Position numbers and translations under genes: made by a program | The notes under the pieces: generated by a model | The model's database searches: none | The model's input: only the letters and a program-made list of their open reading frames with translations | What the model was told of the DNA's origin: nothing | Shown: piece by piece, positions 2,707 through 6,172 of the stretch | Position numbering within the stretch: position 1 is the stretch's first letter | Layout: each line of letters begins with the position of its first letter | NCBI GenBank assembly: GCA_013151235.1 | Contig: JAADIO010000049.1 | Location: forward strand, 1 to 12,454 | Length of the DNA stretch: 12,454 bases | Direction of reading: 5' to 3' | Source of the DNA: Deltaproteobacteria bacterium | GTDB lineage: Bacteria; CG2-30-53-67

Positions 2707-2749
2707 TTCTTGCAATAAATGGTATTGTAAGATCCGGATCAGCCGAACC
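2684..2749 (+). promoter_or_regulatory. candidate antiterminator pairing aptamer 3' half with terminator 1
   Basis: The 3' half of the aptamer can pair with the stretch leading into the first terminator arm. The pairs are GGU-CG (2684-2688) with CG-A-ACC (2744-2749), GCU (2693-2695) with AGC (2741-2743), and CCG (2697-2699) with CGG (2735-2737). This gives 11 pairs interrupted by bulges. A strong 9-bp hairpin (CTTGCAATA 2709-2717 with TATTGTAAG 2723-2731) sits in the intervening loop and brings the strands together. This structure excludes P3, the ligand-contacting ACCG, and the terminator 5' arm at once. It predicts that ligand binding favours termination (OFF switch). The pairing is visible in sequence; its use is inference. 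Confidence 0.5.
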
Positions 2750-2780
2750 AAGTTTGTTTTTGAGGTTCGGCGTTTTTTTT
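2742..2780 (+). terminator. intrinsic terminator 1 of the riboswitch expression platform
   Basis: Perfect 8-bp stem GCCGAACC (2742-2749) / GGTTCGGC (2764-2771), a 14-nt T-rich loop, and eight T residues at 2773-2780. It lies 36 nt downstream of the aptamer, the normal place for a riboswitch-controlled terminator. Its 5' arm overlaps the proposed antiterminator. Confidence 0.9.
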
Positions 2781-2791
2781 GCTTGTGGCGA

Positions 2792-2831
2792 AGCCGAACC
2801 TGTTTGCTCTTTGAGGTTCGGTTATTTTTTT
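2792..2831 (+). terminator. intrinsic terminator 2, copy of terminator 1
   Basis: Stem AGCCGAACC (2792-2800) / GGTTCGGTT (2815-2823), 9 pairs including one G-U, followed by seven T at 2825-2831. The stem arms are almost identical to those of terminators 1 and 3, so they can also pair across copies. A small GGC-GAA-GCC hairpin (2787-2795) overlaps the 5' arm. Confidence 0.88.
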
Positions 2832-2846
2832 GATGCTTGTGGCGAG

Positions 2847-2885
2847 GCCGAACCTGTTTGCTTCTTGAGGTTCGGCATTTTTTTT
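2847..2885 (+). terminator. intrinsic terminator 3, adjoining the protease ribosome-binding site
   Basis: Perfect stem GCCGAACC (2847-2854) / GGTTCGGC (2869-2876) followed by eight T at 2878-2885. The GAGGG ribosome-binding site of the protease gene begins at the next base. This is the last barrier before translation. Confidence 0.9.
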
Positions 2886-2894
2886 GAGGGCATT

Positions 2895-5800
2895 ATGAAA
2901 AAACCAGTCACCAAAATAAAACAGATCGGGTTGTTGTTTCTGGCCTTCTTCCTTTTATCTTTTCTGCTGATTCCATCATTAAATACGGTGCGACACAACG
3001 AGGATTCCTCCCTGAATGTTGATGCCGTAAACCTGGGGCATAAAACTCCGGTCTCTTCCATGAAAGACCGGACCCGAGTCGATTCGTCCCGGAAAGAAGA
3101 ATCTGTTCCGCCGGCCCCGGAAACCCTGCAGGTGGATTTGAGGAAGAATCCGGGGGACACGGCTGCGGCGGGTAAACGCCCCAAGGCGAAACCTTATGTC
3201 GAGCATGAGATCCTGGTCCGTTTTGCATCGAAGGTTTCCCCGGCAAAACTGACGGAAATCCTGGCCGATCATGATATGACCGTGGTCCGGATGTTGATGG
3301 GGAATCACCTCGCTTTTGTCCGGCTTCCTGAAACCCGGAGTGTTGCCGAGGCGGAGCGGATCCTGCGGAAGGTGCCGGGGGTCCTTTTCAGCGAACCCAA
3401 TTATATCGTCCACACCACGAGCATCCCCGATGATTCCTCCTTTTCCAACCAGTGGGGATTTCAGAACACCGGCGCAGGCGGCGGGACGAATGATGCCGAT
3501 ATCGATGCCGTCGAGGCCTGGGACAAATCGACCGGTTCCTCTTCTATTGTGGTGGCGGTTGTCGATGAAGGGATCGACTACACCCATCCCGATCTTGCCG
3601 GCAATATCTGGACCAACCCGAACGAGATTCCCGGGAATGGAATCGATGATGACGGAAACGGCTTTATTGATGATGTACACGGCTGGGATTTCAATCACAA
3701 TGATGCTACGACCTATGACGGGGCGAGCGAAGACCGGCACGGGACGGAGGTCGCCGGAGTCATCGGTGCGGTGGGAAACAACGGTGTCGGCGTGGCCGGG
3801 GTCTGCTGGAATGTCCGGATCATGTCGGTGAAGTTCATCTCCTATGGGAACGGGACCGTGGCCGATGCGATTTCCGCACTCGAATATGCCGCCAAGGAAG
3901 GGGCCCGGGTCGTGAATTGCAGCTGGGGCGGTACTTCCTATTCCGCCGCACTGGAGTCGGCCTTTCGTGATCTGGAAAACGCCGGTGTTTTAGTGGTGAC
4001 CTCGGCCGGAAACAGCGGAAAGAATACCGATCTCTCTTCCCACTATCCTTCCAATTATGATCTTCCGAACATTATTTCCGTGGCCGCCACCGACAGAAAC
4101 GATCTGTTGAGCTCCTTTTCCAATTACGGGGTGACGACCGTCGATCTCGGAGCACCCGGTTCTTCCATTTATACGACAGCTCCGGGCGGGAACTATGCTT
4201 ATTTCAGCGGGACTTCGGCGGCATCCCCTTTCGTGACCGGGGCTGCGGCCCTGGCTCTTTCCGTTTTTCCCAATCTGACCTACCAGGAGTTGAAGGACCA
4301 GATCCTGAATCATGTTGATCCCATTGCATCCCTGACGGGAAAGACCGTGACCGGCGGCCGTCTGAATGTGAACAATCTGGTCTCAGCGCTTTCGAACGGA
4401 GATTCCGATGGGGACGGCATGCCCAACGGTTTTGAAAGCCGGTACGGGCTGAATCCTTTGGATGCCTCCGATGCGAATGCGGATGCCGATGGTGACGGGC
4501 TCACCAATCTGCAGGAGTACCGGGACGGCACCTCTCCTGTGAACAAAGACAGCGATGGGGACGGCCTCTCCGACGGTTTTGAGGTCACTTATCACTTGGA
4601 TCCGACCGATGCTTCCGATGCTTCCAAAGATCTGGATGGAGACGGTCTGTCGAATCTGACGGAATATGAGGCGGGAATGGCGGTTAACAACGTTGATTCC
4701 GATCACGACGGGATCGACGATTTCACGGAATACGGTCCCCGGCAGTTTGCCTCCGATTCGGACGGTGATGGGATCATCGATGCCCTTGATACCGATTCCG
4801 ATAATGACGGACGTCCGGATGCAGAGGAAGGAACGGGCGACGATGATAACGACGGTATTGCAAATTATGTCGATATGAACGACAGCGACGGGCCCTCCGG
4901 CGACCAGGATGGAGACGGTCTTTCCAATTCGCTGGAGGTTACCTACATGTTCTATCCGAACCGGGTTGATTCGGACAATGACGGGATCGATGACCGGACG
5001 GAATTCGGCCCGAACGCAACCCCTCTCGATACCGATGGAGACGGGATCTATGATGCCCTGGATACGGATTCCGACAATGACGGCAAAACGGACCTTTCCG
5101 AGGGGACCGGTGATTCCGACGGGGACGGGGTCCCGAATTACAGGGATAGCGACGACTCCGACGGTCCCGTCGGGGATGCCGACGGCGATGGTCTTTCGAA
5201 TCAGCTTGAAGCACGGTTCGGTTTGAACACGAACCTTGCGGACAGCGATGGAGACGGGATCTCCGATGGTGAGGAATTCGGGACGGGTGATCTTCCGCTG
5301 GATACCGACGGGGATGGAATCATCGACGCCCTTGATACCGATTCCGATAATGATGGCGCCCTTGATATAAACGAAGGGGATCTGGACTCGGACGGCGACG
5401 GAATTCCCGACCGGCTCGATGCGAATACGGCGACCCTGTTAACGGGGTCCGGCGCCCTCTCGCTGATTCTCGGAAAGGGTGCGCGTCTGAAAGATGTTCT
5501 CTTTATCGCCCGGCCCCGGGCGGAAGCCGACATTCGGAATATCGATTTTCCTTATGGCGGGGTACAGTTCAAGGTAAGCGGGCTTGAGCCCGGTGCCGCT
5601 GTGACGATGACCCTGAAGACTTCCGCCGTGCTTCCTTCGAATGCCGAATACTGGAAGGAGGATGGAAACGGGAATTATGCCCGGTATGATGCGGTCATTA
5701 ACGGCAATACCCTGCAGTTTGTTCTGACCGACGGTGGAACCGGAGATAACGACGGTGTGGCGGATGGTTCCATCAGCGATCCCGGTTACATCGGGATTCC

Positions 5801-6005
5801 GGTGGCGGCCGAAAGTCCCTCCGTTTCCTCCGGCGGAGGCGGCGGAGGCGGTGGGGGCGGCGGAAGCGGTGGGTGCGCTCTCTCCACGCAGCCGGTGCCG
5901 CCGGAAAATGGATTGATCGATCTTGTTCTTCTCCTGCTGCCGCTCGGTTTTCCAGCAACGCGGCGTCTTAGCGTTTTACTCGGCCACAAGCGGTTCCGGT
6001 CCTGA
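2895..6005 (+). CDS. secreted, surface-anchored subtilisin-family (S8) serine protease with Ca-binding repeats
   Basis: The product of 1036 residues is a multidomain exported peptidase. Residues 1-28 form a signal peptide (basic start, then IGLLFLAFFLLSFLLIP). Residues about 97-176 resemble the fervidolysin-type prodomain, ending in EPNYIV. The S8 domain (about 200-495) has the complete triad: D224 (VVDEGID), H282 (RHGTEVAG) and S441 (SGTSAASP), with oxyanion N373 (SAGNSG). Residues about 502-843 hold 18 DxDxDG-type thrombospondin-3-like calcium motifs. Residues about 847-970 resemble the choice-of-anchor U domain (LTDGGTGDNDG...DPG). The tail has an 11-Gly run, C994, a hydrophobic segment (LIDLVLLLLPLGFP) and RR, like JDVT-CTERM-type sorting signals. 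ATG 2895 has GAGGG at 2886-2890; an in-frame TTG at 2754 lies inside terminator 1 and was rejected. Expression is probably governed by the upstream cyclic di-GMP riboswitch. The substrate is unknown. Confidence 0.93.
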   Translation: MKKPVTKIKQIGLLFLAFFLLSFLLIPSLNTVRHNEDSSLNVDAVNLGHKTPVSSMKDRTRVDSSRKEESVPPAPETLQVDLRKNPGDTAAAGKRPKAKPYVEHEILVRFASKVSPAKLTEILADHDMTVVRMLMGNHLAFVRLPETRSVAEAERILRKVPGVLFSEPNYIVHTTSIPDDSSFSNQWGFQNTGAGGGTNDADIDAVEAWDKSTGSSSIVVAVVDEGIDYTHPDLAGNIWTNPNEIPGNGIDDDGNGFIDDVHGWDFNHNDATTYDGASEDRHGTEVAGVIGAVGNNGVGVAGVCWNVRIMSVKFISYGNGTVADAISALEYAAKEGARVVNCSWGGTSYSAALESAFRDLENAGVLVVTSAGNSGKNTDLSSHYPSNYDLPNIISVAATDRNDLLSSFSNYGVTTVDLGAPGSSIYTTAPGGNYAYFSGTSAASPFVTGAAALALSVFPNLTYQELKDQILNHVDPIASLTGKTVTGGRLNVNNLVSALSNGDSDGDGMPNGFESRYGLNPLDASDANADADGDGLTNLQEYRDGTSPVNKDSDGDGLSDGFEVTYHLDPTDASDASKDLDGDGLSNLTEYEAGMAVNNVDSDHDGIDDFTEYGPRQFASDSDGDGIIDALDTDSDNDGRPDAEEGTGDDDNDGIANYVDMNDSDGPSGDQDGDGLSNSLEVTYMFYPNRVDSDNDGIDDRTEFGPNATPLDTDGDGIYDALDTDSDNDGKTDLSEGTGDSDGDGVPNYRDSDDSDGPVGDADGDGLSNQLEARFGLNTNLADSDGDGISDGEEFGTGDLPLDTDGDGIIDALDTDSDNDGALDINEGDLDSDGDGIPDRLDANTATLLTGSGALSLILGKGARLKDVLFIARPRAEADIRNIDFPYGGVQFKVSGLEPGAAVTMTLKTSAVLPSNAEYWKEDGNGNYARYDAVINGNTLQFVLTDGGTGDNDGVADGSISDPGYIGIPVAAESPSVSSGGGGGGGGGGGSGGCALSTQPVPPENGLIDLVLLLLPLGFPATRRLSVLLGHKRFRS
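4692..5420 (+). repeat. 273-bp (91-residue) tandem repeat within the calcium-binding region
   Basis: Two full units (residues 600-690 and 691-781) and a third of about 61 residues follow one another without gaps. Each begins DSDxDGI.D..E(Y/F)G, continues with D(S/T)DGDGI.DALDTDSDNDG, and the full units end with NY.D..DSDGP.GD.DGDGLSN.LE. The exact 91-residue register and strong identity indicate fairly recent internal duplication. Such Asp-rich repeats bind calcium and act as rigid spacers on bacterial surface proteins. Confidence 0.9.
5832..5873 (+). repeat. G-rich tract encoding the polyglycine linker before the sorting Cys
   Basis: Eleven consecutive glycine codons (residues 980-990) then Ser-Gly-Gly lead to C994. 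The + strand is a dense GGC/GGA/GGT/GGG run that could slip in replication or form G-quadruplex structure. A Gly-rich linker directly before Cys, a hydrophobic helix and arginines is typical of several bacterial CTERM sorting tails. Confidence 0.75.
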
Positions 6006-6060: not shown

Positions 6061-6089
6061 TTGATTTTTCAGAAGCCCTGTGGTATTTT
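6061..6089 (+). promoter_or_regulatory. candidate promoter of the rimP-nusA-infB operon
   Basis: TTGATT (6061-6066) and TATTTT (6084-6089) are 17 nt apart, with an extended -10 TG at 6081-6082. They lie directly after the protease terminator and upstream of rimP. Transcription would start near 6096, giving a leader of about 77 nt that contains the hairpin at 6120-6143. The -10 is only a moderate match, so confidence is limited. Confidence 0.55.
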
Positions 6090-6119
6090 TCGGCAAAATT
6101 CAGTTCACTAATAAAAAGT

Positions 6120-6143
6120 GGGCTCTTAAGGAGCCCTTTTTTT
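6120..6143 (+). terminator. leader terminator / putative attenuator upstream of rimP
   Basis: GGGCTC (6120-6125) and GAGCCC (6131-6136) form a perfect 6-bp stem with a 5-nt loop, followed by seven T (6137-6143). It stands about 60 nt beyond the strong protease terminator and 29 nt before the rimP ATG, downstream of the candidate promoter. It therefore looks like a weak leader terminator, not the end of a gene. In Bacillus subtilis, NusA represses its own operon through a NusA-dependent terminator in the leader; a similar arrangement here is an inference. Confidence 0.75.
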
Positions 6144-6172
6144 ATGGTACGGAGGTTAGCTGTTTTAAAGAG

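Follow-up and report, generated by a model that had tools for sequence, protein, structure and literature searches.

The window, the whole 12,454-nucleotide stretch of Deltaproteobacteria DNA analysed here, carries rsmD-, coaD- and aspC-like genes upstream of a promoter (names that reflect our reading of the open reading frames; the aspC orthologues were traced). Along the locus the promoter is followed by one c-di-GMP-I aptamer, three intrinsic terminators and the gene for a secreted protease, whose ATG at 2895 lies 19 nt past the last terminator stem. In the features listed below, a and b denote the 5′ and 3′ arms of each terminator, G001 is a sister species in the same genus and G003 belongs to a second genus.

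2434–2462, + strand: strong sigma-70-like promoter, TTGACG-17-TATAAT, 11/12 consensus positions, 26/29 identical in G001.
2469–2624, + strand: 5′ leader before the aptamer, 156 nt, poorly conserved (79% identical to G001).
2625–2701, + strand: c-di-GMP-I (GEMM-I) riboswitch aptamer with GG at the G20/G21 place (RF01051, 56.5 bits, model positions 1–87 of 87).
2692–2744, + strand: predicted antiterminator, GGCU 2692–2695 with AGCC 2741–2744 and CCG 2697–2699 with CGG 2735–2737, capped by P4.
2709–2731, + strand: 9-bp hairpin P4 between aptamer and T1, its pairing kept in G001 and a similar hairpin present in G003.
2742–2771, + strand: terminator T1, arms a1 2742–2749 and b1 2764–2771, T-tract 2773–2780 (−12.5 kcal/mol).
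2763–2801, + strand: cross-copy hairpin X12, b1 2763–2771 with a2 2793–2801, an exact 9-bp inverted repeat (−14.5 kcal/mol).
2792–2823, + strand: terminator T2, T-tract 2825–2831 (−14.0 kcal/mol).
2814–2855, + strand: cross-copy hairpin X23, b2 2814–2823 with a3 2846–2855, 10 bp including two G-U (−12.3 kcal/mol).
2847–2876, + strand: terminator T3, T-tract 2878–2885 (−14.8 kcal/mol).
2886–2890, + strand: ribosome-binding-like sequence GAGGG immediately 3′ of T3.
2895–6005, + strand: regulated gene, encoding a secreted S8 subtilase that carries a prodomain and bacterial TSP3 repeats (PF00082, E 4e-59; PF22148; PF18884).

The aptamer matches its Rfam family over the full length and passes the gathering cut-off of 35 bits, and nothing else in the window was returned by Rfam, in agreement with the single aptamer that an earlier, sequence-only reading had placed ahead of the terminators. 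The G at the equivalent of Vc2 G20, a selectivity position, would fit c-di-GMP rather than cGAMP as the ligand, and the source genome holds five c-di-GMP-I loci. An inverted repeat, TTTGACGGTAAA/TTTACCGACAAA at 2611–2634, extends across the 5′ boundary of the aptamer, is mostly kept in G001 and could act as a competitor of aptamer P1. The leader segment 2567–2600 has a GGGAGG resembling a Shine-Dalgarno sequence, together with what may be a tiny open reading frame (VMPGRNL*); AGGAGG or GGGAGG stands at the same place in 5/5 orthologous leaders, despite otherwise poor leader conservation. Beyond the subtilase gene, a short strong terminator (GGGCTCTTAAGGAGCCC TTTTTTT) within a well-conserved leader at 6075–6150 precedes the rimP-nusA-infB genes and is possibly an attenuator.

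All three terminators share the arms GCCGAACC/GGUUCGGC with 0–2 extra pairs each, so that the near identity of the arms claimed by the sequence-only reading holds; its uniform 8-bp stems do not. T1 has 8 bp and a loop of 14 (2742–2749/2764–2771) followed by GTTTTTTTT, T2 has 10 bp including one G-U and a loop of 12 (2792–2801/2814–2823) followed by ATTTTTTT, and T3 has 9 bp and a loop of 12 (2847–2855/2868–2876) followed by ATTTTTTTT. A simple terminator scan missed T1–T3 because their loops of 12–14 nt exceed its limit. In most copies and species the loops (2750–2763, 2802–2813 and 2856–2867 in the window, and those of the orthologues) share UUUG with pyrimidines after it; loop conservation is not expected in terminators. 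The array is also open in the frame of the gene, with periods of 51 and 54, and could be taken for a leader peptide, a reading we dropped because in G001 a spacing of 52 and one extra base before the ATG break the frame.

Each 3′ arm of the array can pair not only with its own 5′ arm but with the next one, exactly at the positions first proposed, and this property is kept in both G001 and G003. The exact 9-nt common arms are not due to chance, but they are expected from duplication; copies 2 and 3 are 85% identical over a 54-nt unit. The minimum-energy fold of the isolated array nests a1:b2 around b1:a2, and the arms therefore compete. The cross-copy hairpins had been described as lacking T tracts, which is not quite the case, as G-interrupted U-rich stretches (GUUUGCUC and GUUUGCUU) do follow them; with loops of 21–22 nt they should nevertheless be poor terminators.

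To find further orthologues we searched all eight genomes that represent the phylum, five of which carry the subtilase locus immediately behind aspC. The number of terminators, all with the same stem, is three in the window and in its syntenic orthologue in G001, two in G003, and one each in G002 and G004 of a third genus, with aspC identities to the window of 87% (G001), 77% (G003) and 72% (G002/G004). G005, an 89% complete genome of the same family, gave no orthologue of this aspC-riboswitch-subtilase locus, and one GTDB contig scan returned the G001 record as the only orthologue. The linker TGCTTGTGGCG occurs in copies 2 and 3 as well as in G003, where the sequence preceding the start codon is similar to it, as expected if the duplicated unit comprised a terminator plus a ribosome-site stretch. 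The array probably grew from one to two to three copies by tandem duplication, an order that agrees with the aspC identities, although loss is also conceivable as there is no outgroup. A scan of 147 c-di-GMP-I loci, of which 44 came from the first set of relatives and 103 chiefly from one other order, showed adjacent terminators whose arms can be exchanged only in the window and G001; G003 was counted as having one terminator because the scan misses bulged hairpins. One further locus has a pair of terminators separated by more than 80 nt. A second c-di-GMP-I aptamer in G002 (G002:C47:19864-20010, L041) has the same terminator stem in one copy and precedes a multihaem (CxxCH) cytochrome gene.

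The array is not only rare but strongly conserved. Between the window genome and G001 it is identical at 143/145 positions (99%), compared with 76/77 for the aptamer, 31/39 for the platform, 124/156 for the leader and 63% for third codon positions. Counting the loops, linkers and tracts of the array only, 88/90 positions (98%) are identical, which differs from the leader with p about 1e-5 (Fisher's test). At other c-di-GMP-I loci that are orthologous between these two species, the single terminators have changed in loop or stem, and the terminator after the subtilase gene has changed as well. Judged from these alignments, the array is constrained beyond the needs of independent hairpins, which fits the relay and would also suit a factor that binds there. 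In G003 both b1 and a2 are preserved, and X12 (−15.4 kcal/mol) is more stable than the bulged hairpin of T2 itself (−11.7 kcal/mol); the only damaged arm is the last, b2, which under a relay is the arm without a cross partner, a fit that comes from this single case.

A candidate antiterminator that reaches a1 can be predicted. In isolated platforms the AGCC at the base of a1 is predicted to pair with the aptamer 3′ strand in 5/5 orthologues (P 0.73–1.0), with a hairpin at the tip that in G001 and G003 is P4; in G001, P4 carries two one-sided changes that leave the pairing intact. In the full-length RNA the predicted AGCC pairing falls to P 0.09 in the window, because leader structures compete, and to 0 in G003, and the CCG/CGG helix of the candidate is broken in G001. 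Other upstream pairings for a1, among them that of the leader CGG at about 2559 and that of 2586–2595 with 2749–2758, were rejected as they are absent from G001. The predicted antiterminator spans half of arm 1, and at equilibrium T1 is predicted to win in every orthologue; control must therefore be kinetic. As the predicted antiterminator and the ligand-bound aptamer are mutually exclusive, ligand should favour termination, which would make this an OFF switch like Cd1 of Clostridioides difficile.

We propose a model in which one aptamer decision is passed along all three terminators by a shift in pairing register. In the absence of c-di-GMP, the aptamer 3′ strand would pair with the base of a1. 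With a1 held, b1 would be free when a2 emerges and b1:a2 would form, following which b2 would take a3 and b3 would remain without a partner; in this free state all three terminators would be lost and the protease gene would be read. When c-di-GMP is bound, the aptamer would retain its 3′ strand, leaving a1 free, and T1, T2 and T3 would fold in register and terminate. We tentatively regard the element as an OFF c-di-GMP-I riboswitch with a tandemly multiplied terminator and an iterated register shift of the trp-leader kind, an assignment we hold at slightly less than an even chance, and we are a shade more hesitant about the strand-exchange cascade that would switch the three stops together. 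Sequence comparison and crude folding models are the grounds on which this model is drawn.

We ran a helix-level master equation, taking its barriers from findpath, at 30 nt/s. Formation of T1/T2/T3 is 1.0/1.0/1.0 in the ligand state; in the free state the values are 0.02/0.06/0.12 at a k0 of 2e5 per s, rising to 0.19/0.43/0.65 when k0 is 2e6. Holding only the AGCC of a1 lowers T2 and T3 to 0–0.01 in this model, T2 being lost because displacing X12 in favour of T2 meets a barrier of about 10 kcal/mol. For G003, at a k0 of 2e5, T2 is 0.07 when free and 1.0 with ligand. The in silico outcome is model-dependent and hinges on a partial-helix intermediate: in an earlier version of the helix-level model that lacked the partial a1:b2 helix, T3 re-formed, and the outcome changed once this intermediate was added. 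In a less restricted co-transcriptional simulation T1 displaces the antiterminator; with a1 held T2 and T3 are lowered, but we give this simulation little weight because its designed negative-control array misbehaved and its one-copy orthologues switched inconsistently. These simple co-transcriptional models yield the relay at the lower k0, a weaker relay at the higher one, and loss of the antiterminator in the other simulation. The relay proposed by the sequence-only reading is thus partly supported: it keeps its pairings, its register-shift logic and the backing of the helix-level model, but its antiterminator is a predicted one that T1 displaces in the less restricted simulation.

The main rival to this model is that three independent, duplicated terminators act as redundant back-up that cuts leakage, with only T1 controlled by ligand, T2 and T3 each leaky and merely lowering output, and the cross pairing a by-product. 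We consider this a substantial possibility, though less probable than the relay. Duplication alone accounts for interchangeable arms without selection, since they come free with a tandemly grown array; the copy numbers of one, two and three with the same stem and common linker are as redundancy would have them, and the relay is not needed by the one-terminator orthologues, which counts against it. A dual terminator with an unregulated second member is also known, in the c-di-GMP-I riboswitch Bc1 of Bacillus thuringiensis (PMC11218506). Redundancy would, however, let loops and linkers drift, whereas they are far better conserved than the leader. Bc1 itself cuts both ways, as in it T2 remains formed when ligand is present, masking T1 (PMC11218506), and two unregulated strong terminators in the window would likewise hold the gene off; because an unregulated second terminator masks Bc1, a working three-terminator switch needs a way to disarm T2 and T3.

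A further reading is an insensitive or decaying switch, in which the gene stays off regardless of ligand because of the duplicated terminators, for which Bc1, a c-di-GMP-I riboswitch without response (PMC11218506), is a precedent and to which the equilibrium advantage of T1 in all orthologues would conform. The near identity of both aptamer and array between the two species signals strong constraint on both, and we judge such a switch the least probable of the readings. Only slightly less improbable is that stem-loops with UUUGYU loops and TGCTTGTGGCG linkers bind an RNA or DNA factor, or render the polymerase processively termination-resistant, with no strand exchange. Conservation of loops and linkers in excess of pairing needs would suit such a role, and Bc1 offers a case in which Zur binds the DNA of a dual terminator (PMC11218506), but the window yielded neither a factor of this kind nor an element for processive antitermination; the aptamer is its only Rfam match. 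Taken together, the relay is feasible and would provide the best single account of three terminators beside a working switch.

In the trp leader of enterobacteria, blocking segment 1 lets 2:3 pair, preventing the 3:4 terminator. The proposed relay resembles it in the register shift among successive complementary segments (1:2 and 3:4 versus 2:3), but the trp leader is triggered by a stalled ribosome and has one terminator, whereas here an aptamer would be the trigger and the shift would be iterated over three. In Cd1 the terminator folds when ligand is present, and an aptamer strand otherwise joins the antiterminator (PMC9262584); the aptamer family is the same, but Cd1 decides at one terminator and the window has three with exchangeable arms. 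Bc1, whose terminators lie 28 bp apart and whose authors describe as rare the occurrence of two terminators within one platform (PMC11218506), likewise combines one c-di-GMP-I aptamer, a long platform and more than one intrinsic terminator; no arm exchange was reported for it. Tandem, or pseudo-cooperative, riboswitches steepen their response through several termination decisions (PMC9481103), with an aptamer for each terminator, unlike the one aptamer for three seen here. We found no report in the open-access literature of a register shift relayed over several terminators.

Extra terminators cut leakage (the threefold first suggested is imprecise, as independent leaks multiply), but the antiterminator normally does not extend to them, so that they mask the switch, as in Bc1. 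If the relay is true, it solves this general problem: interchangeable arms would put all terminators under one decision and sharpen the output obtained from a single aptamer, and nature would have its own equivalent of engineered strand-displacement cascades. The one-, two- and three-copy orthologues offer a ready-made series for the steepness of the dose response and for leakage.
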